DNA of 64,000 nucleotides from Nautilus pompilius (taxonomy: Eukaryota > Mollusca > Cephalopoda > Nautilida > Nautilidae), in assembly GCA_018389105.1 (NCBI GenBank), contig JACATO010001746.1, positions 1 through 64,000 on the forward strand, read 5' to 3'. The position numbers were made by a program, and so were the translations under genes. Positions 10,335 to 61,214 of the stretch are shown one piece after another. How positions within the stretch are numbered: the first letter of the stretch is position 1; every line of letters begins with the position of its first letter. Below the pieces are notes generated by a model. It saw nothing but the letters and a program-made list of their open reading frames with translations, had not been told where the DNA came from and made no database searches.

Positions 10335-10595
10335 GAACTGACGTCATATCTCTCTCTCTTCTCTCTATAATGACGTCATCTCCTCTTCTCTCTCATCTCT
10401 CTCTCTCAGTCATTAAACATCCATCTCTCTCTCTCTCCATCTCTCTCTCTCTCATCTCTCTCTTTCAGTCATTAAACATCCATCTCTCTCTCTCTCTCTC
10501 TCTGAACTGATGTCATATCTCTCTCTCTTACTCTCTGTAATGACGTCATCTCTCTCTCTTCTCCATCTCCTCTCTCTCTCTCTCTCTTCTTCTGA
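10230..10595. repeat. CT-rich satellite with TGACGTCAT motifs
   Basis: (CT)n interrupted by units such as CTGAACTGACGTCATATC (10334) and CTGAACTGATGTCATATC (10502), 168 bases apart, and by TAATGACGTCATCTC and CATTAAACATCCATC repeats. Related in sequence to the arrays at 14.7, 18.0 and 28.4 kb. Confidence 0.8.
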
Positions 10596-14696: not shown

Positions 14697-15455
14697 TGAG
14701 AGAGAGAGAGATATGAGGTCATTACAGAGAGAGATATGACGTCAGTACAGAGAGAGGGAGAGATGACGGATGTCAGTACAAAGAGAGAGAGAGATGACGG
14801 ATGTCAGTCCAGAGAGAAATATGACGTCAGTAATAGAGAGATGACAGATGTCAGTACAGAGAGATATGACGTCAGTACAGAGAGATATGACGTCGGTACA
14901 GAGAAAGAGAGATGACGGATGTCAGTACAGAGAGATATGACGTCAGTACAGAGAAAGAGAGATGACAGATGTCAGTAAGAGAGATATGACGTCATTACAG
15001 AGAAAGAGAGATAACAGATGTCAGTAAGAGAGATATGACGTCAGTACAGAGAAAGAGAGATGACGGATGTCAGTACAGAGAGATATGACTTCAGTACACA
15101 GAGAGATATGACGTCAGTACAGAGAAAGAGAGATGACAGATGTCAGTAAGAGAGATATGACATCAGTACAGAGAAAGAGAGATGACGGATGTCAGTACAG
15201 AGAGATATGACTTCAGTACACAGAGACATATGACGTCAGTACAGAGAAAGAGAGATGACAGATGTCAGTAAGAGAGATATGACGTCAGTACAGAGAAAGA
15301 GAGATGACTGATCTCAGTACAGAGAGATATGACGTCAGTACAGAGAAAGAGAGATGACGGATCTCAGTACAGAGAGATATGACGTCATTACAGAGAAAGA
15401 GAGATGACGGATGTCAATACAGAGAGATATGACGTCAGTACACATCGAGATATGC
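14697..15455. repeat. GA-rich satellite, about 50-bp unit with TGACGTCA
   Basis: Tandem units alternate ATATGACGTCAGTACAGAG and AAGAGAGATGACGGATGTCA. The landmark GAGAAAGAGAGATGAC recurs about every 49-50 bases, with occasional 71-base spacings. About fifteen units, moderately diverged (GTCA/TTCA/ATCA variants). Confidence 0.85.
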
Positions 15456-18039: not shown

Positions 18040-19012
18040 GTTGTCTCTCTCTCTGTAATGACGTCATTTCTCTCACTGTAATGACATCATTTCTCTCTCT
18101 AATGACGTCATTTCTCTCTCTGTGTAATGACGCCATTTCTCTCTCTCTGTGTAATGACGTCATTTCTCTCTCTGTAATGACGTCATTTCTCTCACTGTAA
18201 TGACATCATTTCTCTCTTTGTAATGACGTCATTTCTCTCTCTGTGTAATGACGCCATTTCTCTCTCTCTGTGTAATGACGTCATTTCTCTCTCTGTAATG
18301 ACGTCATTTCTCTCACTGTAATGACATCATTTCTCTCTTTGTAATGACGTCATTTCTCTCTCTGTGTAATGACGCCATTTCTCTCTCTCTGTGTAATGAC
18401 GTCATTTCTCTCTCTGTAATGACGTCATTTCTCTCACTGTAATGACGTCATTTCTCTCTCTGTGTAATGACGCCATTTCTCTCACTGTAATGACATCATT
18501 TCTCTCTCTGTGTAATGACGCCATTTCTCTCTCTCTGTGTAATTACGTCATTTCTCTCTGTAATGACGTCATTTCTCTCACTGTAATGACGTCATTTCTC
18601 TCTCTGTGTAATGACGCCATTTCTCTCTCTGTGTAATGACGTCATTTCTCTCTCTAATGACGTCATTTCTCTCTCTGTGTAATGATGTCATTTCTCTCAC
18701 TGTAATGACATCATTTCTCTCTTTGTAATGACGTCATTTCTCTCTCTGTGTAATGACGCCATTTCTCTCTCTCTGTGTAATGACGTCATTTCTCTCTCTG
18801 TAATGACGTCATTTCTCTCACTGTAATGACGTCATTTCTCTCTCTGTGTAATGACGCCATTTCTCTCTCTGTGTAATGACGTCATTTCTCTCTCTAATGA
18901 CGCCATTTCTCTCTCTGTAATGACGCCATTTCTCTCTGTAATGACGCCATTTCTCTCTCTAATGACGTCATTTCTCTCTCTCTGTAATGACGTCATTTTT
19001 CTCTTTGTGTGT
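18040..19012. repeat. CT-rich satellite, 21-23 bp unit with TGACGTCA and a 121-bp higher-order period
   Basis: Units like CTCTCTGTAATGACGTCATT repeat about 40 times, with variants TGACGCCA and TGACATCA. The order of variants repeats: CGTCATTTCTCTCACTG starts at 18181, 18302 and 18423, each 121 bases apart, showing amplification of a five-unit block. All open frames here are repeat translation. Confidence 0.9.
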
Positions 19013-32941: not shown

Positions 32942-33087
32942 ACTTTTTAAATTTAAAAATGAGTGATTCGAGGTTTTTACACTTTCAAATTTAATTTGCA
33001 TAAAAATTATTGAACAATAAAAGGTAAGTCAACGTATTTAAGAAGGAAGTAAAATACGGTACAGAAAACCAGAACCCCCCCATTTAA

Positions 33088-33292
33088 TTACTGAAAAAAG
33101 TGGAGAATAATTACAAATGTGGCGAGAATGGAAGCCAGGGTAGTTGAGCCGGAGCTGCCGTCGTAGTGGGCGTCAGCCTGACACTCTCTCTTTCTCAAAG
33201 TGTACAGCGCATCTTTAACGAAGACGGCGAATTCGGACCCGCCCGCTTGTCCGGCGGTCTCTGAGGAACATTCGATGGCTTTGTTTAAGATT
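33088..33292 (-). CDS. Exon 5, terminal exon of the GPI-type gene (domain 2, second half and GPI tail)
   Basis: 205 nt: one base completing Pro170 (CC|A), 67 codons, stop TAA at 33090-33088. The acceptor is excellent (TTTTATCTTTACTCGCAG). It encodes Cys178 and Cys207 (RKRECQADAHYD), a small-residue stretch GSSGSTT that can hold the omega site, and a C-terminal hydrophobic run (LASILATFVIIL) ending right at the stop. That arrangement is typical of a GPI attachment signal. An ATTAAA hexamer lies at 33088-33083, overlapping the stop; a better poly(A) signal was not found close by, so the 3' end is open. Confidence 0.83.
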
Positions 33293-34512
33293 CTGCGAGT
33301 AAAGATAAAAGGATTTCCTGGCTTAACTTTAACATGCGAGACAACAGAAAAGGGCAGGGGACAAAAGGTTGGGGGGGATTAAAATCAACCGAAAGGAGGT
33401 TTTATGTACATAATTCTTTACGTAATGTGGCGGCCCAGCTGCTTCCTTGACGTCTAGTCTTTGTACAGAGGTTGGATTTATGCTGGTTCTCTGGCGTGGC
33501 GTTGATGGGAACAACATTACACTGGATAAATCCCCTCATCAGAGAGACGAGTGTAATTGACTTCGAGGACGGAGAAACTGAGTTTGTTCGGCGTTGTAAG
33601 CCATCCAAAGACAGTTGATGTCTCGCCGCCAAATGAAGCAACCCTCGAGCGGGTGATAGAATTATGAACTGATTAAATCGGACACGGTCGGCTGGTGGGG
33701 AAGGCATATCCTCCCTTTGTCAGCCTTCTAGGTGAATCTCAGCGGCCGGACGAACGCCACACACACACAACCGGCGATGACAAACAAACCAAGTCCGGCC
33801 ACATAATGAGATCTACAGGCGAGATGGTGCTGCAGGCACTCAGCCGCCGGGGTTCTATAACTCCTCAACGCTCCACACATCCCTTTGTCCGGTGGGAGTT
33901 GCCAAACCCGAACGTTGGCGAATGATTTTGCGAATCCCCTTTCTTCCCCCCCACTTCCTTCGCAGAACAAGAAAAGTAGAAAGAAAGAAAGTAGAGAGTC
34001 GGTCTTGTCGTCCTTAATCCGAATCCCGACTAACTTTTCCTGTCACCGACATTATTTAATAATATGTACAATGTTGGAAGTATTAATAGTCCCAATATGA
34101 TGCTGAGCTTTGATACAAAATTCATTCAACATCGAACCCGCGACCTTCTTTCTCTCAAGTCATTCTTCCATTTCGACCTAGTTACTGCGTCACGGGCCTA
34201 AACAGTTAAAAACAAATAATGGTATTTATTATTATTAGACAATTCGGAATTAGGTAAATTTTAAAAAGTGACATTGGACGACTTACACAGAAGTAAAACA
34301 GAGTAACAAACAAAAGTGTGATGGTCGGGATAAGTGAACTCTGAGCTGCTTTCTTATTAAATTTCTTTACTTTAAATACTCATCAAAGTCTGGGAATTTA
34401 CTTATAAAACTTCATGGAGAGACAATCTTCAAGTCGGAAACCAGAGAAATGTTTCCCAACGAACGTTTTCGTACAAACTCAGAGAGAGCGAGAGAGAGAG
34501 AGAGAGAGAGAG

Positions 34513-34551
<39 letters not shown>

Positions 34552-37500
34552 GGGGAGGAGAGAGAGAGATTGGAGAGATGGAGAGAGAGAGAGATGGAGA
34601 GAGAGAGAGAGGTGTTTTGGAGGAGAATGTAACTATGTATATTTACGACTTGGATGTTAAGTGGAGAATAATAATGTGCGAAGACATCCATTTTATTTTC
34701 AGTGCCTAAGTAAATCGATTTCATTACGTGTTTGGAAACAGCAGGCGAAAATCATTTCTTTGTTGCAGTTACGGGCGTATTCTTCGTGATCTGAAGAAGT
34801 CAGCTGCTGTTGACTACAAAAGACCTGGTATCTCAAAAGCTTATTTCTCTGTTTACGGTTTCCCCATTGAACTCATGAGATAGCTCGACAAAAAATACCA
34901 AAGAATTTCAATCTATTGCGCGACTTTATTTGCATTTTCCGCAAAAAACAGCTGACAAACTGTAATAAAAGGGCATAAATTTATTATGGAAGGGCGGTGT
35001 ATTCCAGCCAGAAAGAAATGGAACTATAGGAGTTCGGTAGCCTGTAATGGTCGCACGTGTTATCTATCTACGTTCTACGTGTCGGCATGAAGGACAAAGT
35101 TGCGCTGAGGTGAAGCTGGAACTTTCCAGAACCAGCCGTAAGGCCGGAAGTTGGTGGCGCTGAGTACGATATTCGTTGTTATTAAATATCCCACAATCCA
35201 ACGGAAGAAAAAAACTCGGTCAAAACCGTCGTCACTCACAAATTTCAATGGCGGCTCCACGTCGGTCGTCCTCACCGCCGCCGTATAAAGAGCGATGTCC
35301 GAACCACGAAGGCGACGTATTGCACTTCTCCTGCTTCCATAAGTAACCGCCAGGGAACCACGCACGTGTTACGCTTCTTTGATCATCTACAAACCAGCAA
35401 TGACTTTTTCTCCCGCTTAACTAATTAAGCACTCACATAACGGATATTCGTCTTTACCCCGCCTTTAGTGTGATCACGGGATATTGACTAACTTGACATA
35501 AAACACCGTAAGTTCCTTATGAAATTGGTATATTTTAGATATACGGAGAATATTTGCGTTGGAAATTCTCCAGCGTATCAGATTACCAACAATCTCAATC
35601 CTGGAAGGTAACACCTCTGTAAAAATGCACCAGTAATTAATGATGATTTATATATACCATTTTCGGAATTCAAATGGGTAAAAATATATATGCTAATGAG
35701 CCTGGGGAACAACATGGGATAATTGTATTGGACAAAATAATTGACTGCTGGGCGAGAGCACTTGTAAACCTCTTGAGCGCACGGAGGTGCGTTAGTTTGT
35801 CGACACTAGCTATTGGCGTGTGCGGGCTTCCTCAGCGCCTGGCGATGTCATGTCGGAAAACCTACATCAACAGCCAACCCCACGGGAAATCATGTTCCAG
35901 GTGTGGGAGAAAACCCGTGCCGCCAGTTGTTAGTGAAGAGGCGAAACGAGGCAACATCGACCTGGATTCGAACCAGAGCTTCTCGCCAGTCGTGGCGTGG
36001 CCAGCCATTCGTGTTTGGTCACCGACTCGCTGGCTTTACCAATACGTAAGCTAACAGTGGTGACTCTAATACATAGAGTTTGGGAAAGTTTAAGGTTGAA
36101 AACAGAGTACTATACTCACGGACACGTCTTGGTGGAATGCTCCACGTCGGGCCTATTGGTCGAAATGCTGCTGCCGCTGTTGTTGTTCTTGGAGACCGCC
36201 AGGGCGTCTTGAAAACACAAGGAAAGGTCCTTTATTACGTTGCTGCGGCTCACCAGAGAAGCCACTCCGTTCATAACCACTGGGTCCAAATATAAAATGA
36301 AAAGTGATGATCAGGCAGGGCAGACGACAATACGCAGGACATTGGCAAAAAAGGAGGGAATCGCCTCAAAGAAGCAAAATCAGATGGACCTAACACCTGA
36401 CGATGACTACTGCTCGTAGTTATTCCGACACCAACCGGGGTGTCGTGGCGACCTGGAATGCGTCCCCCCCCTCTTTGGTAAGAGCCCGGATGTCTCCCTC
36501 CCACTCCGGCCCAGCGCTTACTCTCGGACTTAATTGGTTCTGCGAGCTAAAGATAATTTTATCTGGCGGAGTTAACCTCTTCATGTTATTCCCTCATTAC
36601 TGTTAATTGGAACTTTTTGTGTAGCCCCCCTTTCCTCCCCTTGATACATCGCTTCAACTCGTTTTCTTACTCTGATGGTCAGACATTATTATCATTAATA
36701 TTCTCTATGCCCCGTCCGTTCACACGGGCCAGTCGATCTGTCCCATTCATTGCATCATAGAGCAGCTGACTGTTTCGCCGAGATAGATGCCGCGGCCTTT
36801 CTGGACGCAGGATTGACACTGCTCCCTAGCGGACAACCGCGGCATTACGTTGCCCTCCCCCCACCAGGGTTGTCTCCCCTGTAGACATCGGTGCTCGACG
36901 ACGACAGCAGTCATCAAGCTTGCTGTGAGCTTTGAATCGGTATGACGCTCTACGCCTATTAGAAGTCAATTACAGAATGAATTGTACTACATTTTACCTA
37001 AGTAATGACAGAAACTCCAAGATAAAGCAGTCATGAATAAATCAAAACGAAGCTCTTTAATATTGATTACTAAAATCTGCACTTATCACTTTTCTCAAAT
37101 CGTCTGTGTTTACATACCCTGATGAGATTTTCAACACAAATGAGTATAGTATTTTCCCCAGGTCAACCCGTATCTTGTAGAATATTTATTCCGTATTCCT
37201 TTGAAATTTATTTGGTAGCCTTACGATCCTTTGTGTCTGTGCAGCACTTATATGTTTACCAGTTAATACCTATGTCAGAATTTCGCTTATCTTCTGTCGT
37301 ATACCCCTGTGTCCTACGAACAATGTTTCACCAAATTAAAAGAGTACTTTACGTCAGCAACACCGGTCTGCTACACCCGGCGCTCAAAAGTTGTTGAATT
37401 ACAGCGCTGATCCAATTTCCAAATAATTGTCGATGTTAAAAAAAAGAAGTTAAAAAAAATATATTAAAAAAAAAACTACTTCTTTTCCGCACAATAAAGA

Positions 37501-40500
37501 ACTTGTAAATGTAGGAAATCACCGTTATTTGAAATACTCGATCGAGACGGCCAGGAACAAAACATCGACAGCGACCTTAAACAGAATTATTACGGAGAGT
37601 TGTGATGTATTTCCGGTTTTTCAGAAAAAGAACCGATTCATATTTGCCTCTACTTTATACTTCTGATGTCATTTCCCGGTTCAGAGAGTTCGGTGTGAGA
37701 TGTTTGAGTCCATCAGAGAGATGTCGGAGTATAGGCGGTTTGGAGTTCAGGATAAATTCCTGCGTTTGGGTATCTTACCCTGGCGGTTGCTGCACGCCGT
37801 TTTGTAGACTTCAGAGATGTTCTTCGTGCTAATCCCCATCCTGTTCACCATTTTCTGTACAACCACACAGTTCTCTATCACATTCACCTCGCACGCCGAA
37901 ACACTGTCTATTTTTCTGCAAGGAAAGAAGACAAACCTTCACAAGACATCGGATCCAATGTGGACACAGCAAGACACGAGTAATCAGTCCATCCGTCCTT
38001 ACAGCTAAGGTAAGTAAGTGTGTCTGTCGCGGTCAGGAAACTGTCCCGTGATTGGACGATTCTGATCGTTTCTGCTGAACCTAACAGAGGAATTTATCAC
38101 CGTATCTAGAAAATTTAACGTTGCATAAAAATATTAAGTTAATTTTGTTTCCGAGGATCCTATTATTCAGTGAATTTAAACAACAAGGATGCATTGTGTA
38201 ACACGTGACCGGGGTAATCTGGAATTACAAAATTCATATTATTATTAGTCAATATTGCCTAAACAGTAACCTAACTGAACAAATCTTAAACCCTAACAGC
38301 CAGCAGTACATATATCATAAAACCTTAATGTTGCTGCGCGTGAACACAACCTCGTTCTTCTTCATCTTGTTTATGCTGCAAAAACCTGCAGTTGCTGAAG
38401 CAAATCGTGGATGTTACAATGGTGACACTACCTACATTTCAAAGGTTCCTAGGAGGAGAGGGAACGTGGCCATATCGCTGGCGCACACCGACGTCTACAA
38501 AAGGGCGTAAGAAGGAAGTTAGGAAACGTTCTCAATTATACGACTCTTGGGGCCCCAGCGATTCCGATTTCCTGCAGAACGATCCCTGGCGGAACTTTCT
38601 ATTCTTGGGTGTGGGATAAAACCGGAATGTTTCGGTGAAACCATATGAGACTTTCTGTGGCGGAAAAAGAAGACGCGAATTTTGGTCCTTTGACCATAAA
38701 AGTCTAGCAGGTTAACCACTGCACCACCACGCCTCGTTATAGCCTAATTTGCTGGCACTGCATGGACGGTTCAGTGGTGGGTAGACGTCCATCTTAAGTT
38801 ATACACGCTTCTGCTTTAAATAAAGAACTCGTATGTGCTAGAATTAGATCGGCACAGATTCTTGGGAATCCCTCGGTATTTTGAGCCGGAGATGTTCACA
38901 CGTGCTGGAGAACACAAGATGTTCCTGGTTTTTGTTTATCGGTGTTGGAGAAAAGATCTAATAAGAGCAACTTCGGTTAAATTCTCCCGTAGGCATCTGA
39001 AGATGAACCACATACATCGTTTCTGAAGCCTGGCGTTAGCTGTGCCCTTCGAGCCGCCGGTCTTGGTGTGAACCAGTTTTAAAACCACAATAAAACCCAA
39101 GTATTCCCAGAGATAATAAATGGCGCCTGCTGGTACCGCTCTCCCGAGACTGACAAGACAAACGTCGTCCATTATGCTCATCCCTAACCAACGACGCATC
39201 CCGATACTTCATCGCAGACGCTTGAGTCTTGCATAAGCCAGGGCGACTTCCCCGCCTCCCTCTAATAACCATGCTGAACTAAGCTAAGCTTAGGCTTGTC
39301 GGACGTTAACCCTCTCGGATTTTTCAGTTTTGTGGAAAAGATTTTGAATAAAAACAAACAAAAATCCGCTTCCGATATCGGAGGAACGGTTTCTGTGCCG
39401 TGGTAACTAGTGGTCACGTGATCTCCTTTCACCCATCAGTCTTCGTGACACATGAACAAGTCTTAGCCTCATCAGATCTTAGAATTTAAGGTGGGGGCAA
39501 ATTAGCTTTATATCTAAGATCATCCCACCCCTCCCCGATGTTATCTTTCCAAAGGCAGGCCATAGTGACGAGCTCCACGTGTCTGAAAACGTTGTTGCGT
39601 GTGTAAAAGATGCTTCAGCTTCCCGTTACTTTTAAATAACTTGATGTCGTGAAATACTATTGCACATGCATCAGATTTATTGACGTCATTGCTTCCGAGT
39701 TGAGACAGGAAATAACAGGACACAACAGGAAACAACAAGACACGGAGAAAGCTTCAGCCTTCTAACCAAGCGTGCGGACAGAATTCTAAAAAAGAAAACA
39801 CAGAAATTGGCTACAATTAATGGCTATTCTCCCAGCTTCCTGGTTGGCTTTCTATTCTGTTATTTTATTTTTTGGTTTTACTTTTCTACTGATAGCCTAG
39901 AAAACTTATGGTTTTAAATCAATCAGAATCATGGAATTATCGACGCCTTTAAATTCTGATACAAGGCAAAAGCCTTTATTCTTCACCGATAATTTCTGTC
40001 TTAATCTGACATCTACAATTAAAAGTAAATTTCATGTGGCATCGACTAAAACGTTAAACGACTTGTAATGTAAAAAAGCATTTGCACCTATATGAGCATA
40101 ACCCTTACATAACACACAGATACATATAGACACACACACACACAACACAGACACACACAGATACACAGATACTCACACAGAGATACACATACACAGAAAT
40201 ACACAGATACTTACACACACAGACAGACACTTACACAGGGATACACAGATGCAAGATGCTTACACACACGCGCGCGCAGACACACATACATCCACACACA
40301 CAGAGATACACAGATACTTACAGACATACACAGACATTTACACACAAAACTTTGGCGTTACACTAAGCAGGAAAGTTTTCGATACTTTGGTCCTTTGTCT
40401 AGCTATCTCCATTCTATCATTTTAGCTCTGCCTGGATAAAATGTACACTACTTATTTAGTAAAATTAAAAGTTTAAACTTATAAATATGTAAATACTCGT

Positions 40501-43221
40501 CATTTAAACCAAGATAGATGTGTAATATAATTTGCCTCGTTTCCCCATATCAGACATAATTATGGTATTAACAATAAAAAAATCCAGCAAGCTGAAAGGT
40601 GGGTATTTTGATGCAAGCATTCCATTTACACGTACGATGTTTCCAACAATCATACCTTAATTTACAGGTCTTGTCTTTCAAATAAACTCGCTGCTTGCTG
40701 TTCTTTAACGGGTTCCGGTCCAGCATTCGTAGGACGCTCGAGACACTGAGCCTAACAGAAAGTGATCAGTCACCATCTATCAGCTTACCTGGGCCCCCCT
40801 CTTCATGTACGAACACTCAAGCCATAGTCACCCGGCCCCATTTCTGTTGTCTAGATTAAAAACCAATGATACCGATCATTTTATTCATCTCTCCTCTGGC
40901 GCTCGCTCCTAGCAGGAAAATTCTCATTTTCAGTTCGTTTTGAAATTATATTTCTCGGCAAAATTTGTTATATTTTGTCATTTTCCTTTCGTATTCCTCT
41001 TATTTTCTGTCTTCTCGCCGGACAGTCAACTAGATTTTAAAAAGCCGTTTTATCTCCTTTGACCATGCTAACAGATTTAATGTTTGTTATACCTGTAATC
41101 TGAAAGAGTACAGCCGCGTCTCGACTTACGTAACTCTACGTAAGTCGGGAGCGGCTGTACTGACTTCTGTTCCATATGTCACAGCGCTATCCAGCCAGTC
41201 ATTGGCTGGTGGCATGCTGATTCTTTTTAGTTTCCTCAGTTTTTTTGGTGAGAATTAGAAATGGGCTGTTTCATCTTCTCTAAAAGTTTATCACGGGCGT
41301 CTGATATATTTTTCTTCTGTTAATGCTGAGCTTGCAGCTGCGGCTGTCAGTGCGTATCGATCAGATCGATTAATCCAGAATCACTCTGCTTGCTTTCTTT
41401 GAACATTTTAAAGGTATTCGCGCGAAAGAACTTTTGCATAACTGACCTTTAAAAGAATTTTCCATTGAGAAAGACTTCCGAATGTGTTGTTTATCCTTAA
41501 AATAGCGTTTCTAACGAATTAAGCTATTTATAACCAGACATTAGTGCTCTTCGTTCAGAAATACGAACAGTGCGTGATAAAAGGTTTGTGCTATTTCCAG
41601 GAAGTAGATAATTAGCTCTGGCATTTCCAATGTAGAGTTTACTAATAATCTTGAGTTTCAGCGACCTGGACAGATGCCCCTGTGCAGCGGGCTAAGTCAA
41701 TGATTAATATCTTGGCAGCTTGTCTGTTATGTGTTCAAAACACAGCTTAGGTCTTCTGTACTATCGAGAAAAAAAAAATCGAACGCTTATAGCTGTTTAG
41801 CATCTTCCACGAAACTTAAGCCCCCTTTTTTCGAGAGTATTCCCTCGAGATTCTTAGAAGGATATCTGACGTCACTTATAGACGGACCGCTTACTTGCAG
41901 ATTTCTTCGTAGAAGCTGTCACTCTGTAGGGCGCGTAACAGGGTGCTGGCATTGAACAGGTTTATCCGGGCCTCGGGCAGGGAGCTGTAGCACCTCATCA
42001 TCTCGTCCTGGACCGTGTTCTTGCACGGGACGGTGCTGCTGCGGACGAGCGCTGAAATTAAACGAAATACAAAAGGCCCAAGCTAGTTTCAGTCTTAAAA
42101 CTCCCGTCACGAGTCGAAGAGGGTTAATCCGCTTCCCTCCCCCAACTTCTTCGCTCGATCTCTGCGAAGTTCTGCTTCCAAGCGAGATCCCGAGCCTTCG
42201 CAGGTTCCCGGTGGCGCTGTCAACCGAAGAAACTTAACTCTTTTACCTTACGATCGATCGAGGATTTATTCTACACGGACTCTGCGTCATCAGTGACCAA
42301 CTGACCAAACATAAAAAGGCTGATTAAATTATTGCATAGGATAGCAGTCTAACAATCCGCAAAAATTCTAGGTACATCATCTTTAAAAGATATTGTAACA
42401 TATATATCGTATACGAAAGCTTCTAATGATTTAAACCTGATCACCGTATGTCTTCCGCATAAAACCGCTCTTTAAGAGGCTTGTATCGACTACACTTTAC
42501 TGTACATGGCATTTTATATATCACATTGTATGCGTTAAAATACCTTTTTTTATAATTATTTAAATTAAATATCACTTTCAATTTAAAGGTATTTTCATTG
42601 TTCACTTTTAAATATTGCTTACCGTTTTGTAAGTATTATTCACGTTTGCTTGACCTACGAACCATAGTAAGTGGATAGCCTCATCTTTAATATCCTCTGC
42701 ATTTAAATCGCTTTGAAAAAAAAAAGAAAAGAAAAATGGCTAAACATTTAACGAAGTAAGATTGCTGATTCTAACGGTTCCAGGGCGGTGCAACTGGCGC
42801 CATCCATCACCGAGCCAGTGTTTACCATAAGCGACCATCTCGCAGATTCAGCGCCTGACAAAGAACCCGCGGAGCTGAGCCATCTCGCTTCGCGCTGGAT
42901 CCTGTAGATAGTTAAAAACAAAAAAGAAAAGGAAGATTGGAAGATTCGAAAAATGTCGCTTTTCCGCGATCGATACAAATGTATTCATATATCTATAAAT
43001 AAATAATCTTAAGTTTTCCTCGTGGTCGAAATGCAAAAAAAAAACAAACGTGTAGTTCCAATTAGGTTGTGTCGAATTCGATAATCTTTGTGCTGATAAC
43101 TGAGAAGTTTGCGGGTTATCTATAAACAGAACATTTCGTGTTTGCCCAGCATTCTGGGGTATTAGGTAGGAATCAGAGATTAATGTTTTTATCTCCCAGC
43201 CATTTTCCCTGCGTGGGTATG

Positions 43222-43260
<39 letters not shown>

Positions 43261-46200
43261 ACACGCGCGCGCGCACACGATGAGGACCGGACCTTGTGAA
43301 ATATTTACACTTGGAATACTTTGCTTAATCGGCAGGCAATCATATTTAAAGCAGAACAGACGCGTTTTTTTTTTCCTTTGTAGATAAAGGACCTTTATTT
43401 AAGTTCTGAGAGCTTCCTGCCCTTCTTCACCCTTTGGTATCCTGTCGATGATGCGGTTGTCAAAACAAAGGACGTAGTTATAATGTTATTTGACTGCTGT
43501 GCTAGTAAATGTATGCTTGCTTAATTACTGGCCAAAGTAATCACTATTTGGAATGATGTGACGCCTATATTTCTTTCTTTTTTAAATTATTAATGAGAGG
43601 TAATGGTGGATGTAGTATAGTCAGGTGTCTTTCCAATTATTTGAACTGAGCAAATTTAACATACAGAAGAGCTAGTTCGTTGTAGACGAAGATTCGGCGT
43701 CGGTTTGTTTTCGGCGCCCTGCTTTGTCTCGTTTGTATCGGATCGATCCGCGGAAGGTTTTTCCGGATACTGAAGTTTCCTTTTTTGTAATATGGCACTG
43801 CCTCATTGCCAGTCCAAACGAGTGCAAGTCAGAAGACTACTTCCTCTCATAGATGAAATTCCATACAATTGAAATCGGTCGTCAGAGGAATACACAAAGC
43901 AATAATCAATTAGTTGATTATTCTAATGGAAGACTAGACGTCCACGACGCCATCCAAATTCGCGGCGACTGTCCCGGTACACGTTCTCTTGAATGAATGA
44001 TAACCCCTGACCTCAGAACGGAAAACGAAAACTGTTAGAGCCGAGGGATCTCAACGAGTACAGAGGTGACTCGTTAGAGCTGGGTCCTCTCCGGAAGATG
44101 GCGGTTTATAATGTAATTGTTTTTTTTTTTTTTTTTTCTTTTCTCTTTGTTAAATCGTTACAAGTTAAAAACCTGTGCCGGTGGCTGCCCACATCGCAGC
44201 TCTTTCCTGTCATCAGATTCTAATGATGTGCGTCAGCAAAACCTCGTTCTCCTCTCGGCGCCATCGCCACGAGAGCTTGCAGCGGGCCGCCATTACAGAC
44301 GCCTCGAACAAACACGGCAACTCTACCGCAACAACTGGTTTTACCCCGACTTCTGGCCGAGACGGTGAGCGTCGCAGGCTTTTCTAATGAGCACTTTCTG
44401 ACATAATTCCCGTCGTGTAACACGTCCGGGCTCTGTGGGCGACATCGCGTGGGTACTCTACACGCCCACCTCTCCCACCGGGAATTCAAAGCTGTTGACC
44501 CCCAGCCATCGTTGGCAAAAGTCCACGCTAGACGGCCGGTCCACGAGCAGGGTCTCCACTTTTAACGTTAGGAAAATAAGCAAATTTTACCTTATATATA
44601 TATTTCTCAGAAATTAACTCGCTTGTAAAATCCCCCGAAGGTTACTACATTTGCTTTTTCTCGATCTTTTTTTACATAAAACACTGAGTCAAAATAAATT
44701 TATGGAAAAAGGAAAGTTATAGGATTTATTCACTAAATAATATACTAATTCATGGATAAGCGATATGGAACGATAAGGAACTTTTCCAACTTATCGCATG
44801 GAGAGTTCCTGAAGAAGTTAATTATAGAGAAACTTAGCAAAAATCTTATTCTCAAACTTAATAACTGCTATTATTTTAACACTGGCCGATTATTATACAG
44901 GTAAAGTCAACGTCACTTAAATGCGATCTTTATTTTAAACCCTCCCCCTTTTTAAAGAAGATTACAGCCGCAAACTGTTTTATAAATTTAGCATCTCGGC
45001 GCGCGCCATCTTGGAATTCTTCACGTTCGAGTTAGGAGACCACGAGCGAGTTGTCGACCTTTGCTTCTAGTGAAAACAGAAGCTTTGGACGTCCCTGGAA
45101 ACGTGACCCCTGCAGGTTCCTTCGGTTATCGGAATAACTGTCACGCCGGGGCCAAACTCCGAATCAGCGAAATCTTATGAATTCCGGTTGTCAGCTGGTG
45201 AGACAAACAATTTTCAGACCAACAGCGGCTTACTGATATGACCAGAAAACGGGTGCCAAGCATCTGCGGTGCAAGGAGGGTGGTAGGAGAGTTGGAAGAC
45301 ACGCAGCGCGCGACCAACACGAGAAGCAGATTAATTCGATTACCTTCCCCTCGTTACAGAGCAGATCTGTCTTATATCGCGCACAGCTGTCGATGCCGAT
45401 GTAGAAAGCTCTGAATACGGGTTTTGTAGACGGGGGGGGGCTTGTTACCATAATTGCAATACAGCGAGACTTTTGTAATATGCGAGAGCATTAAAGACAG
45501 AAGTGTCACCGCCAACTAAGCTTCATAATCGCATTTGTTTCCTCGCATTAGCCTGATTGTTATTGCAGTCTCGGCGATTTCCCATCATCGTACCGCGAAC
45601 CTCCGCCTCTGAGGGCTCAACTAGAATTTCTCTGTTGCCTTTTCCTCCTTCGTTCATCACAATCGCTGCTTTAGCGCGGGCTGGAAAGATACTTCTCCCC
45701 TTTGAAGAAATATATATAGTAAATCCGTGAGTGGTTTCTGTCTGACTGAGGTAGAAGATAGAAACAAAAGCGAAAGAAATAGGGCCGACAAAATATTAGA
45801 GGCGAGGTTTAGTTAAGTCGGCTGCGGTTGGGTGAGCGCCGGCCACACGTGACCACCAACCAGCCTGGCCTTTCAGCCTCTCGACGACAAGGTCACGTGA
45901 CGGGGCGGGTTCGTGTAACGGCTGAAACTAGCATGGCCGCCAGCTAGAAGGTGAAGGGAGCCTTGGCCAATCCCGACAATTATTATTATTAGCAAATTGT
46001 AGAGTTTGTCGCAGTGAAAAGGCGGAAGCTCGCCTGTCGTTCTCTTCCCGCTGCTGGGCTGCGGTCAGTTCACCGTCACGGACGAGGGAAGCCGCCGAAT
46101 TCGCACTCTGAATCAAATGGCGGACGCCATCGTCGTCTGCTGCTACTCCAAAGGCCTCGTTCTTTGATGCCACATGCGGTACCTACGTCAAAAGCCAATT

Positions 46201-46523
46201 TATAAAGCGAAGCGCCAAAAATAATAACAGAAAATGTAATATACCCCACCCCTTTTTTCAGTGCGTAAATAGTTTGTTGATAACATGATCAGCCTCTGGA
46301 CGCAGCGACTGAGACTGAGAAATCGGTTTCCCGAGAAGCGGGAATTACGCAAATATTACTTAGTTTCCGCTGTAGCGGGGACCTCTACACAAGCTATGAG
46401 TTCTGGCAAAGGAGCAAGGGTTTCTCCAAAGGGGACCAGTAAATAATTGCCATTCCTGAAGATGAAGGAATTTGGCTTCCTTCCTGACGGTATTTTCCCC
46501 CTAACTTTAAAAAATGCGAGGAA

Positions 46524-46622
<99 letters not shown>

Positions 46623-49600
46623 ATGGTGAGACAGAGAGGACAGAGAGATGGAGAGATGGTGAGACAGAGATGGAGACAGAGATGGAGAGATGGTGAGACA
46701 GAGATGGAGACAGAGATGGAGAGCGAGCGAGAGAGAGAGATGGAGAGAGATGGTGAGACAGAGATGGAGACAGAGATGGAGAGCGAGAGAGAGAGAGATG
46801 GAGAGATGGTGAGACAGAGATGGAGACAGGATGGAGAGCGAGAGAGAGAGAGAGAGAGAGATGGAGAGAGATGGAGAGAGAGACTTTGCCTATTTTTTCC
46901 ATGTCTCACTAGCTGCGTGATTAAGTTCGGTTCAAACCTCAGATGAACTTTACCTTTATCAGTAAATATCACGCAAAAACGAACTTTAATCTATCGACTC
47001 AGTAAATTCAGATTTTTCCTGGTCTGGTGCACCGTGACAGAACGGTTTCTTTAAGCAACATGGCCGCCAGATCCCCGGGGGCTGATATTTTGACATAATT
47101 GTCGGCTGGCCGGGTTATTCAGACATTTTTTTTTCCTATAATAAACGAAGCGGCTTTTATTCCGTCGGATTGACTGACGTTCGTCAAATTGGGGGGGTTT
47201 CCGCATTACGAATCCGACATATTACGGCGAGGGAACTTGATTAGTTTCTAAAATGGCGTCAACCAGCCGACGTCGATGATGGATGAGACTTTCGACCATC
47301 GCGCAGATAATTAACACCGTTCGCCCGTGATGCCTCGGACCAATATCCTCAGGCAGAGATACGCGGCATATCACCGTCTCCGTTGACACACTGGGATCGT
47401 GTTGATGTCGGCTTGTGTGGCTTTATCCCCGCCGGTACCAACAGCCCTCTGACTTAGGACTGATTTAGGAGGGGCTTTGATCGGCTCTCGCACCGGAGCA
47501 GAATTCACTGAATCTCCATCCAGACACGTGCTCGTTACCCGTTACGGGAAAGCTTGGGGCCGAAATTTGCATTATCTGGGTGTTTTGTTGTTGTTTTTAA
47601 AATTTAATTTGCATTTTGAGCAAAAAGTTCTACACTGAAAGCCAGACGTTTATAAATTTCTCCCGTCGGTTTCTCTTGTGATGCAAATAGAGGATCCCTA
47701 CGAACTAACGGGCCTCCATACCACCCTCGCCAAGTTAGGGTTCTCTTCGGTTACTTCCTCCCTTTGCATTGTCTTGGTCGTGGAAACAACGTTCTACAAC
47801 CCAGTCATAAGTTAACAAAGGGATTTCGCTGAGGGGGGGGCGAGACACAACACGTCAGGCATAGCGGGGAGAAACATTCCCATGATAAACTGTGTCGCAC
47901 AACCTTATTTCTCGCTATTAGAGCAGTTGAAATATTTAATGCCCATCATATGATGACAATTGCACACGTGAATTGTCTAAAGCAGAATTGCTCCTGTTGT
48001 CGTATCCTGCTTTTAAGGGTTCTTTTTCCTTTCTTAAAATGTAAAGAAGCTTCAACTTAGGCAGAACTGCTTACATTTAAAATCTATTTCTACTGATATA
48101 AGTACATGACAGCTTAACAGATAAACATTCTGTTCGTAACCATAACCAATCTTATCATTATATGCATTTAACATATTCTTCCGAGGAAAGACACTTACGA
48201 CAGAAAACGCATATTTAATTTTTGCTGTGAAGTACTGAACTTTCACTTCGAAAACCAAGTGTATGGCTATCGGCGATGAGTCTCGATGCATACTTCCTCT
48301 GTTATGAACTTCTGATAACAATTCTTCTATTTATTAAAATTACGCGCAGGTAGTGCATTTATCATTCATAATTTTTAACTGTAAATTTGAGTATAATATT
48401 TAAAAAAAAAATTTTTTTTTTTTTAAAGAAGGCGCAGTCTCGTATCGACGATAATGGCGATTCACCGGTACGGATGTGCGGTTCGGGTTGGATTGGGATA
48501 CATAATCCATATCCGCTCTAGAACAACATGGTGGCCCCACGAGAACTACTTCAGGCCTGACCAGTCAAAGCTGTAACAAACCGATCAGCAAAGCGCTTAT
48601 GAACCGACGTAGGGTGATTACACAGCAATTCTCCTCTCTCTGACTGTATGAGAAAACCAGAAAACCGGAAGTCGTAAAACCGGAAGTCGTAAAACCGGAA
48701 CTAGTCGCTCGAGGTGGGTTGTGTTATCGATATCGATCGGTGTTCTCTTTTCCAGCCAATAATTTTTTTTTTTTTTTTTATAAAAGTCTATTTGCTTGGA
48801 GAATTTATTTAGTAATTTGTGATTCTTAAAAAAAATAAAAAAAGAAGTAATATCGAATGAAGGTTTCCAATTGCATTAAGAAGGCGAACACAAATGGTAT
48901 GTATCAAGCTAGAAATAACAATGTTAGAGTTTTATATGCTGAGCTAAGAGGCAGTGGACTATCACTGCTCAGCTTCTTGTGAACATTAGATGTTAAAAAA
49001 CCCATCCATTATTGCAGTTAGTGATGTACTGGCGAGTGCCAGTCAAAGTATATTGTGGCTAATGCTAACGGATTAGGTCCTTGCAAAGACAACAAAGAAT
49101 TAAATCCCTTTAAAAACGGTTCATCTTTGAGCGTTACTTTCCTATTTATTGCTCTTCGAATACACCTACAAGATAATGAAAATAGATGAAAATGTTGGTC
49201 TCCTGCTGGGGATTCAGCAGACCGACAGTGCTGTAACAGACAAGTCTTTGTAATACTCCAGTGAAGAGTTCGTTATGATCACTGGTGCAGAGAAACAGGA
49301 ACCGGTGATCTTCAGGATGTACGAAGTTGTATCGCCAAGAACTAACATCTTTCTACCTGTATTTTGGAGTGTACAGCACTGCAGTCTTAGACTGTGCCAA
49401 GCCAAACTAAACCGACAGTTACTCCGACCGTAAACATAGCATTTAATTGACAGATTCGACAGTAATCGTTCGCTGCCATTTTTCAAAAGAAGAAAACAGA
49501 AAGAGATGGGGGATATAAAAGTTAGAATTATCGCTTTAATCTTAGCACAGAGCATCAACAAGCACGGATATATCGATTGACCAAAGATAACGTCTGTAGA

Positions 49601-50062
49601 GACCTGGCTCTTTCGATATATAATTCTGATCTGATTTTATTTGTAGCATCAATATATATATATATAGAGAGTATATTTAATAATGGTGGATCCTCAAACG
49701 TCGAAGAAGGGTTATTGGAGTAAATTAACAGTATGCTGCTGATAGGTGTCAGAACAATAAGTATTCTTCAGAATTTGATAAGAGTGAATGTGAATCTGAA
49801 ATTCTCTTGCGCGTCGGTATATTGGAGCCGGGAGAACGGCCAGCAGTCGCCGGCGACGTAAGCTTTTAGGAAACCACGGCTGCAGAAGGGAATTTTTACC
49901 GATTCTTAGCTGAGCCGTGGTTGCGTCCTTACACCCCCCCCAAAAAGGTGACGAGGAGTCGTCGGCGAGTTAAAGAGAGAAAGAAGAAGAGAGTAGGGCT
50001 GACTTACCTAGGAGTAAGGCCGGGAAGAGGCTGGATGTGGACTGAAGCAGAGGATCGATCAT
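33088..50062 (-). CDS. Five-exon gene: secreted, probably GPI-anchored two-domain cysteine protein (237 aa)
   Basis: Join of 50062-50008, 42051-41895, 37915-37779, 36279-36120 and 33292-33088, minus strand; introns about 7.96, 3.98, 1.50 and 2.83 kb. All junctions are GT-AG and the phases (1, 2, 1, 2) chain without a stop. The product starts with a signal peptide (residues 1 to about 24, core LFPALLLALV). It then has domain 1 (Cys 28, 39, 70, 79, 87, 112), domain 2 (Cys 138, 169, 178, 207) and a Ser/Gly linker followed by a hydrophobic C-terminal tail (about 222-236), as in GPI precursors. N-glycosylation sequons lie at 52, 103 and 149. Third-position GC is very high in exons 2 and 4. It should be an extracellular membrane-tethered protein, possibly an adhesion or receptor-like molecule. 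Cysteine spacing loosely recalls small secreted DUF19-like families, but I do not recognise it. Seen: frame, sites, motifs. Inferred: GPI anchoring and location. Confidence 0.85.
34095..34195 (-). mobile_element. tRNA-derived SINE head (degenerate)
   Basis: On the minus strand: GTGACGCAGTAACTAGGTCG (A-box region), a 30-odd base spacer, then GGTCGCGGGTTCGATG (B box GGTTCGATnnn). Spacing is as in tRNAs, but the cloverleaf is not intact. It lies in intron 4. Confidence 0.45.
34480..34612. repeat. (GA)n microsatellite in intron 4
   Basis: GAGAGA with GGGGGAGGAG and GATGGAGAG interruptions. Confidence 0.95.
35248..35346 (+). CDS. Short ORF with a B-box-like zinc motif, ETS site upstream
   Basis: ATG at 35248 (ATGGCGGC, YY1-like context) and 32 codons to TAA. 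Residues 16-31 (ERCPNHEGDVLHFSCF) follow the start of a TRIM-type B-box (C-x2-H then C). A weak donor (CATAA|GTAACC) could join it to a further exon. CCGGAAGT at 35144 is an ETS site about 100 bases upstream. It lies in intron 4 of the GPI-type gene. The minus strand is also open here. Confidence 0.25.
   Translation: MAAPRRSSSPPPYKERCPNHEGDVLHFSCFHK
35810..36060 (-). mobile_element. tRNA-derived SINE-like element
   Basis: Minus strand: TTGGTAAAGCCAGCGAGTCG near 36045-36020, then a perfect B box GGTTCGAATCC at 35966-35956, followed by a non-tRNA body to about 35810. The open frames of 126 and 78 codons on the plus strand here are explained by this element. It sits just inside intron 4, 60 bases from the exon 4 donor. 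Confidence 0.5.
36120..36279 (-). CDS. Exon 4 of the GPI-type gene (domain 2, first half)
   Basis: 160 nt: two bases completing Val117 (G|TG), 52 codons, then CC of the next codon. Acceptor TTTGGACCCAG|TG; donor TGTCC|GTGAGTATAG. It encodes the start of the second domain with Cys138 (DLSLCFQDALAVSK), an Asn/Ser-rich loop with a sequon at Asn149 (NNS), and Cys169 (HSTKTC). Phases at both ends equal those of exon 2, and the Cys138 to Cys169 spacing is the same as Cys39 to Cys70. The second half is almost entirely G/C-ending codons. Confidence 0.85.
37779..37915 (-). CDS. Exon 3 of the GPI-type gene (domain 1, second half)
   Basis: 137 nt: one base completing Lys71 (AA|A), 45 codons, one base out. 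The acceptor CTTCTTTCCTTGCAG and the donor CCAGG|GTAAGA are both strong. It encodes Cys79, Cys87 and Cys112 with a helical-looking middle (QKMVNRMGI) and a sequon at Asn103 (KNIS). I found it by looking for an exon with one base in and one base out, as exons 2 and 4 required. The plus-strand ORF at 37817-38008 that mimics a signal peptide is its antisense shadow. Confidence 0.85.
38328..38510 (+). CDS. Small ORF with signal peptide and dibasic sites
   Basis: 60 codons. A clear signal-peptide pattern (RVNTTSFFFILFMLQ) ends in AVA-EA, a good signal peptidase site. The mature part has one Cys, a tribasic PRRRG and a terminal KRA, like a small prepropeptide. It lies in intron 2 of the GPI-type gene on the other strand and next to a SINE-like piece, so it may be a chance ORF. 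Confidence 0.2.
   Translation: MLLRVNTTSFFFILFMLQKPAVAEANRGCYNGDTTYISKVPRRRGNVAISLAHTDVYKRA
38560..38740 (-). mobile_element. tRNA-derived SINE
   Basis: Minus strand begins GGCGTGGTGGTGCAGTGG at about 38737, with a textbook A box TGGTGCAGTGG and GTTAACCTGC. A degenerate B box follows about 40 bases later, and a body extends to about 38560. Inside intron 2 of the GPI-type gene. Confidence 0.55.
40116..40346. repeat. (CA)n-type repeat in intron 2
   Basis: CACACA mixed with GATACACAGATACTTACAC units. Confidence 0.9.
41107..41161. repeat. Foldback element (imperfect 25-bp inverted repeat)
   Basis: AGTACAGCCGCGTCTCGACT and its near-complement AGTCGGGAGCGGCTGTACT flank a short TACGTAACTCTACGTA centre. 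The arms pair except around the TCT/CCC positions. Such hairpins are often MITE ends or whole tiny MITEs; flanking target duplication is not obvious. Confidence 0.6.
41660..41757 (+). mobile_element. tRNA-like SINE head (degenerate)
   Basis: CAGCGGGCTAAGTCAATGAT, then ATCTTGGCAGC and a B-box-like GTGTTCAAAACAC with normal tRNA spacing. It resembles the 5' part of a tRNA-derived SINE; arms do not fold into a functional tRNA. Confidence 0.33.
41895..42051 (-). CDS. Exon 2 of the GPI-type gene (domain 1, first half)
   Basis: 157 nt: two bases completing the split Ala19 codon, 51 codons, then AA of the next codon. The acceptor has a clean pyrimidine tract (TTTCGTTTAATTTCAG|CG) and the donor is TGCAA|GTAAGC. 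About 44 of 51 codons end in G or C, the strongest coding bias in the window. It encodes the end of the signal peptide, Cys28, the stretch DEMMRCYSSLPEAR with Cys39, a sequon at Asn52 (FNAS) and ends at Cys70 (FYEEIC). The overlapping minus frame that is also open reads Arg/Pro/Gln-rich peptide and lacks this codon bias. Confidence 0.87.
43222..43276. repeat. (CA)n then (CG)n microsatellite in intron 1
   Basis: About 19 CA units followed by CGCGCGCG. Confidence 0.95.
44091..44106 (+). promoter_or_regulatory. ETS plus YY1-type composite motif
   Basis: TCCGGAAGATGGCGGT combines an ETS core (CCGGAAG) overlapping an almost exact YY1 consensus (AAGATGGCGG). In animals this composite sits near transcription or translation starts of many promoters. 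It lies about 110 bases upstream of the candidate exon at 44217. Function is inferred from the motif only. Confidence 0.35.
44217..44364 (+). CDS. Candidate exon in intron 1 of the GPI-type gene, opposite strand
   Basis: 148 nt with an excellent acceptor (CTCTTTCCTGTCATCAG) and donor (GAGACG|GTGAGC). In frame 1 (phase 0 in, 1 out) about two thirds of codons end in G or C, and the peptide is Ser/Arg/Thr-rich (KTSFSSRRHRHESLQ). Two ATGs at 44223 and 44226 would allow it to be a first coding exon, which fits the ETS/YY1-type motif 120 bases upstream. Frame 2 is also open (RELAAGRHYRRLEQ). Frame 1 continues in phase into 50555-50621. No homology recognised. Confidence 0.38.
45344..45410 (-). CDS. 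Candidate small cysteine-containing exon in intron 1 of the GPI-type gene
   Basis: 67 nt between CTACAAAACCCGTATTCAG, preceded by a C-rich tract, and the donor GGGAAG|GTAATC. With one base in, it reads AFYIGIDSCARYKTDLLC then NEGK, phase 0 out. The Cys-x8-Cys motif faintly recalls the Cys79 region of the surrounding gene, but the phases do not allow it as a cassette exon between exons 1 and 2. A second frame is also open. Confidence 0.28.
45845..45955. promoter_or_regulatory. Promoter-like cluster: two CACGTGAC E-boxes, GC box, YY1-like site
   Basis: Within about 110 bases are CACACGTGACC, GGTCACGTGACG (a near-palindromic USF/TFE-type E-box), GGGGCGGG (a GC box) and AGCATGGCCGCC (YY1-like). 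The stretch is CpG-rich compared with its neighbours and lies inside intron 1 of the GPI-type gene. It could drive a nested or alternative transcript. No transcription start can be placed. Confidence 0.35.
45928..46182 (-). CDS. Candidate exon or ORF in intron 1 of the GPI-type gene
   Basis: Open minus-strand frame after an acceptor-like GGCTTTTGACGTAG|GTA, running to TAG at 45928. A donor-like GTGACG|GTGAAC at 46074/46073 could end it after 109 nt (36 codons plus one). The peptide looks natural (SKNEAFGVAADDDGVRHL, then ANSAASLVRDGELTAAQQR) and its codons are G/C-ending more often than not. It has no ATG in frame, so it would need an upstream exon. Its phase (0 in) does not fit insertion between exons 1 and 2 of the surrounding gene. 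Unrecognised. Confidence 0.32.
   Translation of the reverse strand, partial: VPHVASKNEAFGVAADDDGVRHLIQSANSAASLVRDGELTAAQQREENDRRASAFSLRQTLQFANNNNCRDWPRLPSPSSWRPC
46528..46882. repeat. (TA)n joined to (GA)n with GAGATGGAGAC units
   Basis: A TA run of about 26 bases, then GA repeats with ATGGAGAGATGGTGAGACAG units. In intron 1. Confidence 0.95.
48664..48702 (+). promoter_or_regulatory. Three tandem ETS sites at 15-bp spacing
   Basis: ACCGGAAGT at 48664, ACCGGAAGT at 48679 and ACCGGAACT at 48694, within a tandem AAAACCGGAAGTCGT repeat. TATCGATATCGAT (48725-48737) and CCAAT (48755) follow, and AACATGGTGGCC (YY1-like) lies 140 bases upstream. Promoter-like, inside intron 1. Confidence 0.4.
50008..50062 (-). 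CDS. Exon 1 of the GPI-type gene (start codon, signal peptide start)
   Basis: Coding part of the first exon, 18 codons plus one base. ATG is at 50062-50060, the first in-frame ATG after a TAG at 50113-50111. The donor reads CTCCTAG|GTAAGTC at 50008/50007, a near-perfect consensus. The encoded end (SLFPALLL) is the first half of a signal-peptide hydrophobic core, and the core continues into exon 2 (ALV) across the phase-1 junction. The 5' UTR must lie between 50063 and the CT tract that begins near 50130. Confidence 0.8.
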
Positions 50063-50371
50063 CTCTTTGGCTGGCGGGTCTACACGGTCGGTCCCGCGTC
50101 TACGTGTGTACTACGGCTGGCGCGCGCGCGAGAGAGAGAGATGGAGAGAGAGAGAGAGAGAGAGAGATGGGGAGAGAGAGAGAGAGAGAGAGATGGAGAG
50201 ATTGGGAGAGAGAGATGGAGAGAGAGAGAGAGAAGAGATGAGAGGGAGAGAGAAAGAGAAGATTGGAGCGGAAAATTCGATTGGACCAATAGAAGGGCAG
50301 CTGGAGACGTGACGGGGCTGGACAGGGAGGGAGCGGGAAATGGGCGAAGTCTGTCGAGTGCAGGGGTAAGT
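50008..50371. promoter_or_regulatory. Candidate bidirectional promoter
   Basis: Between two outward-facing consensus donors (minus GTAAGT starting at 50007, plus GTAAGT at 50366) lie about 360 bases. They hold a GA/CT tract (50130-50260), an inverted CCAAT (ATTGG at 50262), a CCAAT palindrome ATTGGACCAAT at 50280-50290, and a GC-richer stretch with ACGTGACG. The minus gene clearly starts here. The plus transcript is inferred only from the donor. No TATA box was seen. Confidence 0.4.
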
Positions 50372-56589: not shown

Positions 56590-57335
56590 TGAAGAATGGA
56601 TAGAAAAGTTTTCGTGTCATTTTGCTTCACGAGTTCAAACCGGGCCACAAAGGGATCGAGGCGACTCGTGACGTCAAGCGACCACGGGGCGAGGACACAG
56701 CGAATGGGCGCACAGTACAACGATGGTTTGCAAAGTTTCCATCAGGAGATGTGAGCCTCGAGGATAAGGAAGGTAGCGGACGTCCTTCCTGCTGTGATGA
56801 CGACCGTCTGAAAGCTTCAGTTGAAGCCGATCCAAGGAAAACAGTGGGAGAAATTGCTGGAGAGCTTGGTGAAGCACTGCAACTGTTTCCCGGCATCTTG
56901 AGGCAATCGGCCAGGTGTTGGGTGCCTCACGAGTTGACTGAACAACAACGAAACCGTCGACTGGAGATCTGCTCTTCGCTTGTCATAATAAGAAAACCTG
57001 GCGAAACCATCACAGCTGAAAGGTGCTGTCGTGAATTAAACGTCGTTCATCAGTAACTCTCCCTCGGTGAATCGAAGAGGCCGGATCCTGCTCCACGACA
57101 ATGCTCGTCCTCGTGTTGCAAAAGGGACTCTTCAGAAACCGAACAGGATGAGGTACCAAGTTCTCCCTCACCCGGCCCATTCACCAGACCTTTCTCCCAC
57201 AGACTACCACCTTTTCAAACACCTCGGCTCAGCTTCCTCCGTATAAAATCCTTCTCCAACCAAGCAACAATGGAAACTTCCTTCCAACAGTCTATCGACT
57301 CCAGAAATGCAGGGTTTTTATTTTTTAAAAATGGT
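56590..57335 (+). mobile_element. Internally deleted mariner transposon relic
   Basis: The frame from 56622 reads the mariner N terminus: LHEFKPGHKGIEATRDVK, then GRTVQRWFAKFPSGDVSLED with GSGRPS. It runs through PHELTEQQRNRRLEICSSL and jumps straight to PGETITAE, so about 70-80 residues with the first catalytic Asp (C-D-E-K-W) are missing. After a frameshift the second and third Asp regions remain (LLHDNARP, about 57090; SPDLSPTDYHLFKHL, about 57175). The short upstream MDRKVFVSF at 56595 is out of frame by an indel. Dead copy. Confidence 0.88.
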
Positions 57336-61041: not shown

Positions 61042-61214
61042 ATCGAGTAGCTGTCTGGTTTACTTGACTCGAGACTATTTATCCACCGAGGAGTTGTCAG
61101 GGGTGATCGGTATCGATTCGGGGGGGAGGGAATCGAGTAGCTGGTTTACTTGACTCGAGACTATTTATCCACCGAGGAGTTGTCAGGGGTGATCGGCATC
61201 GATTCGGGGGGGGG
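61042..61214. repeat. Tandem duplication, 90-bp period
   Basis: ATCGAGTAGCTG begins at 61042 and again at 61132. The copies match for about 80 bases, apart from a 4-base TGTC indel, one T/C change and the length of a G run. Confidence 0.95.

Follow-up and report, generated by a model that had tools for sequence, protein, structure and literature searches.

The window analyzed here is a stretch of 64,000 nucleotides (nt) from Nautilus pompilius (GenBank assembly GCA_018389105.1, contig JACATO010001746.1, positions 1 to 64,000), and its minus strand carries, between 50062 and 33088, a five-exon model that is very probably a real nuclear gene. The product is likely to be a secreted cell-surface protein with two six-cysteine, probably helical domains and probably a glycosylphosphatidylinositol (GPI) anchor. 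We take the gene to be real because a diverged paralogue, on contig C2404 of the same genome, keeps the last four exons in the same phases. On present evidence the finding is solid but modest.

The gene and its paralogue

The five exons join into an open reading frame of 714 nt, which encodes 237 residues and a stop, with no internal stop. All introns are GT-AG, in phases 1-2-1-2, with the donors GTAAGT, GTAAGC, GTAAGA and GTGAGT in order and AG acceptors. Exon 1 (50062-50008, 55 nt) supplies the ATG and the larger part of the signal-peptide core, and its donor reads TAG followed by GTAAGT, in phase 1. Exon 2 (42051-41895, 157 nt, phase 1 to 2) holds the end of the signal peptide and the first half of repeat 1 with C28, C39 and C70, and exon 3 (37915-37779, 137 nt, phase 2 to 1) holds the second half with C79, C87 and C112. 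Repeat 2 is likewise divided between exon 4 (36279-36120, 160 nt, phase 1 to 2; C138 and C169) and exon 5 (33292-33088, 205 nt including the stop; C178 and C207), the latter also encoding an anchor-like tail. This structure had been proposed in a first-pass annotation of the window, and joining the sequence bears it out.

The spliced protein served as query against the genome (727,640,739 bases in 2558 contigs) and gave eight matches: the five exons themselves, two places on C2404 and one on C295. On C2404, exon 3 (E 4.6e-5, 40% identity) and exon 2 (E 0.0195, 38% identity) matched on a common strand, in the order expected. A tblastn search of 17,038 bases of C2404 gave exon 3 at E 4.5e-10, exon 2 at E 3.5e-6 and exon 5 at E 0.002, and exon 4 was located by scanning for frames whose phases match. 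The resulting paralogue (C2404 20063-13884, minus strand, loci L009 and L010) retains exons 2-5, with order, strand and phases all unchanged and with GT-AG sites: exon 2 at 20063-19898 (found by both searches), exon 3 at 17463-17327 (137 nt, the same length as in the window), exon 4 at 16723-16573 (from the phase scan) and exon 5 at 14112-13884 (from tblastn). The C295 match (E 0.17) was dropped, since reading it in three frames gave stops and no exon-like frame.

Exon 4 of the paralogue had been chosen with its cysteine in view, and the choice was therefore tested over all candidate exons. The two intervals hold 121 x 78 = 9438 candidate pairs with that phase, and the proposed pair scored highest (45); this score belongs to the window exon and the paralogue donor proposed here, with a tie among four paralogue acceptors. 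For exon 3 the proposed pair was again top, tied with the window acceptor 37936 and with other paralogue donors; acceptor 37915 looks better than 37936, its equal on alignment score, although the matrix scoring described below covered 37915 only. Shuffled sequences scored as high in 0 cases for exons 2, 3 and 5 and in 1 case for exon 4 (3000 shuffles each). The two proteins are 32% identical. In frame, 70 of 216 codons are identical; for the two other frames the figures are 42 of 209 and 47 of 209. For the pair, dN is 0.68 and dS 2.97. Comparison of the two genes thus provides what we regard as decisive evidence for exons 2-5, and the family has at least two genes in this genome.

Exon 1 stands outside this comparison. 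C2404 ends 1975 bases upstream of paralogue exon 2, and neither of two candidates for a first exon in those bases is convincing. In the window, two candidates for exon 1 occur within the 22 kb upstream of exon 2, of which the one proposed is the better, and five candidates found over 64 kb of the plus strand, taken as a control, all have lower hydropathy and weaker donors. Splice sites were scored with a generic matrix and ranked against every GT or AG of the strand; those of exons 1, 2, 3 and 5 are in the best 1.6%. A GA/TC microsatellite (50130-50259) lies a short way upstream of exon 1, at the place expected for a promoter or 5' leader. At the other end, a possible poly(A) signal, ATTAAA, lies on the minus strand at 32990-32995, 92 nt past the stop, as a hexamer match only.

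Repeats, termini and fold

One repeat is encoded by each exon pair (exons 2 and 3, exons 4 and 5), and the unit consists of two exons that start in phase 1 and are separated by a phase-2 intron directly past the third cysteine of the repeat pattern. The intron falls at the same codon and in the same phase in both repeats. Counted from the codon that it splits, the cysteines of repeat 1 (residues 28, 39, 70, 79, 87 and 112) have offsets of -43, -32, -1, +8, +16 and +41, and those of repeat 2 (138, 169, 178 and 207) have offsets of -32, -1, +8 and +37. Three offsets are common to both halves; when the cysteines of exons 4 and 5 are placed at random, only 61 of 200000 trials do as well. The shared offsets, together with the intron position and phase, therefore argue that the body of the protein is best read as two repeats, whose simplest origin would be duplication of a two-exon unit within the gene. 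The first-pass annotation had seen two domains and the cysteine content, both of which stand, with four of the five exons now backed by the paralogue; that the domains may be copies of one unit with matching introns was not stated there.

The paralogue has twelve cysteines, six per repeat, and the pattern is C-x10-13-C-x27-31-C-x8-C-x7-8-C-x19-24-C. In the alignment of the four repeats C2, C3, C4 and C6 are invariant, and C5 of paralogue repeat 2 is shifted by one position. Three of the repeats have C1 as well as C5, and window repeat 2 has neither. This joint loss makes it likely that C1 pairs with C5, and suggests a C28-C87 disulfide in window repeat 1.

Both termini agree with the first-pass annotation, which had described a signal peptide split between exons 1 and 2 and a hydrophobic tail ending at the stop. 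The first 21 residues contain the hydrophobic core LFPALLLALV, which spans that exon junction, and a cut after S23 would satisfy the usual small-residue rule for signal cleavage. At the other end, DGSSGS (residues 214-219; 33145-33162, minus strand) is the likely GPI-attachment region according to a general sequence rule, and residues L222-Q237 (33091-33138, minus strand) are hydrophobic up to the stop, with a hydropathy of 2.19 over residues 221-235. The layout of a GPI-anchored protein, with signal peptide, small residues and hydrophobic C-terminus, is recognizable by eye and hydropathy only. There are N-glycosylation motifs at N52, N103 and N149. From its two ends, the protein is probably secreted and GPI-anchored.

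When the four repeats are combined, the hydrophobic moment is highest at 100 degrees (z 4.74; none of 500 shuffles reaches it), as is typical of helices, and at 140-180 degrees it is below the shuffle mean. Each repeat may therefore be pictured as a bundle of helices stapled by at most three disulfides. C1-C5 would be one of these, and window repeat 2 would have lost both of its cysteines together. The signal peptide would direct the protein to the secretory pathway, where a GPI anchor would replace the tail near residues 214-219.

Several observations weigh against the gene and protein as described. Exon 4 has weak splice sites, its acceptor being in the best 12.9% and its donor in the best 13.4% of the strand, and exon 1 had no match elsewhere in the genome. 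Residue similarity between the two halves of the window protein is not above that of shuffles (1668 of 2000 score as high globally and 1490 of 2000 locally), and the duplication must therefore be old or the second copy must have diverged fast. The dS of the pair is near saturation and cannot be estimated for exon 5, and the constraint since the duplication that this comparison shows is a property of the pair and need not hold for the window copy, or for either copy, today. There is no basic residue ahead of the signal-peptide core. The last residues of the paralogue are QRGYL, after a stretch rich in leucine for which the DNA is a CTT-like run; because such an end is less typical of a GPI signal, it could instead be a short transmembrane segment. 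Finally, the helical signal is carried by the paralogue repeats (0.43 and 0.38 at 100 degrees), while window repeat 1 is flat (0.35 at 80 and 0.32 at 100 degrees) and window repeat 2 peaks at 60 degrees. For this reason, helices in the window protein are inferred through homology with the paralogue only.

Named families and rival explanations

No Pfam model reaches its cut-off for the window protein or the paralogue, in line with the earlier view that no named family can be assigned. Five Pfam scans of sequence variants were tried, one of them with a made-up join. The window protein matched only DUF1397 (PF07165; E 0.0029, with 17.5 bits where the cut-off is 25.7), in two stretches spanning residues 19-88, and its halves or repeats gave no match when scanned alone. 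The paralogue gave SIL1 (E 0.019), DUF19 (PF01579; E 0.032, 14.5 bits against 23.2) and neuritin (NRN1, PF15056; E 0.061, 13.9 bits against 27), all below threshold; its repeat 1 matched DUF1397 (E 0.011, 15.5 bits) and its repeat 2 DUF19 (E 0.04). DUF19 and neuritin are not listed for the window protein. The SIL1 match is probably due to chance. That three of the four weakly matched families are secreted is suggestive, each match being marginal, and on these profiles we file the gene under none of DUF1397, DUF19, SIL1 or neuritin.

Other searches gave no family. In a protein database of uncertain animal content, the window protein gave 1132 candidates, the paralogue 120 and the four-repeat alignment 109, none at E <= 10, which is weak evidence of novelty. 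Sequence searches of the PDB were at chance level only (a flavodoxin at E about 1, a designed protein at E 0.45, and none for one query), and NCBIfam, a prokaryote library, gave no match. In the literature search no mention was found of neuritin family or domain terms, or of neuritin together with DUF19. Two papers that it returned (PMC10448888 and PMC7911839) were prefix matches to DUF1943 and DUF1986, and another (PMC5448750) yielded only the expression of neuritin.

The gene might be a divergent member of DUF1397 or DUF19, that is, a secreted cysteine protein of body fluids to which the tail was added later. The profile matches above are in favor of this reading, which we hold to be possible but doubtful, since all scores are under the curated cut-offs and the window repeats alone match neither family. 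Moreover, a search of the genome with PF07165 gave nothing, and PF01579 hit only two places (E 2.2 and 3.0), both outside the window gene and its paralogue; no control genome matched either profile. DUF1397, which we take to be the insect 27 kDa hemolymph glycoprotein family, also differs in that the window protein has an anchor-like tail. DUF19 proteins are likewise small and secreted, but here there are a tandem repeat and a probable anchor. Of 51 DUF19 genes in Caenorhabditis elegans, 42 encode a signal peptide and 14 are up-regulated by infection (PMC3534327), and a DUF19 protein is listed in oyster (PMC10058639). The gene could also be a tandem member of the neuritin family, with two neuritin-like domains on one GPI anchor. 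Neuritin (CPG15) is GPI-anchored, has a signal peptide and occurs in a releasable form (PMC12715718). Besides the NRN1 match on the paralogue, its cysteine spacing appears similar to that of the window and paralogue repeats, and hhalign against a neuritin stretch placed four cysteines in register, although with P 0.18 and a probability of 0.3% this comparison is not significant. Neuritin is a single-domain protein of 142 residues, whereas the window protein has two domains in 237, and PF15056 found nothing in the genome, which says little because the domain is divided between exons. We therefore consider membership rather improbable.

Decay of the window copy is also unlikely, and somewhat more so. 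The weak splice sites of exon 4 and the loss of C1 and C5 from repeat 2 would fit it, but 237 codons run without a stop or frameshift, and the two missing cysteines likely form a pair, which fits the tolerated loss of one disulfide. Two further explanations were considered and rejected. Ly6/uPAR proteins are small, cysteine-rich and GPI-anchored, may be tandem, and have a three-finger beta fold, so that the size, two domains and anchor-like tail seen here recall them. However, PF00021 matched neither the window protein, its pieces, the paralogue nor the repeats, and gave nothing in the genome, as in the controls; the periodicity of the four repeats is helical, mainly through the paralogue, and the cysteine spacing differs. 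This explanation is very unlikely. Least probable of all is a chance assembly of unrelated open stretches. It is true that 226 combinations of an exon 3 with an exon 4 satisfy the frame and total length, so that phases by themselves select little, but the paralogue refutes it for exons 2-5, with exon 1 outside that refutation.

The preferred explanation therefore remains a secreted, probably GPI-anchored protein with two cysteine repeats. By analogy with neuritin, its most likely action, put forward tentatively, would be that of a ligand or co-receptor that is tethered and may be releasable; recognition in body fluids or immunity, as for some DUF19 genes, may come next. More speculatively, the gene could represent an unnamed family of tandem six-cysteine helical modules on a membrane anchor, the same module being shared by DUF1397, DUF19 and neuritin in one superfamily of surface and body-fluid proteins in animals, an idea that we regard as doubtful. 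If these links are true by fold, little-understood invertebrate secreted families would be tied to a vertebrate neurotrophic factor. In any case, the gene adds a probable small surface protein that the curated profiles used here do not recognize, its history can be read as a duplicated two-exon unit, and the predicted C28-C87 disulfide is testable.

Other features of the window

Scans of the window for tRNA genes and Rfam families found none. Tandem arrays are present at 18046-19008, 14703-15454 and 10487-10563, with short units in which TGACGTCA-like palindromes lie between TC or GA runs; the largest array of TGACGTCA-like palindromes has a score of 1435 and a period of 121 bases. Another repeat, at 61055-61212, has an 86-base unit in 1.8 copies with a 98% match. 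On the plus strand, 56604-57053 is open for 150 residues and matches HTH_48, a domain of Mos1-type mariner transposases, at E 1.1e-10; it is a relic or fragment.

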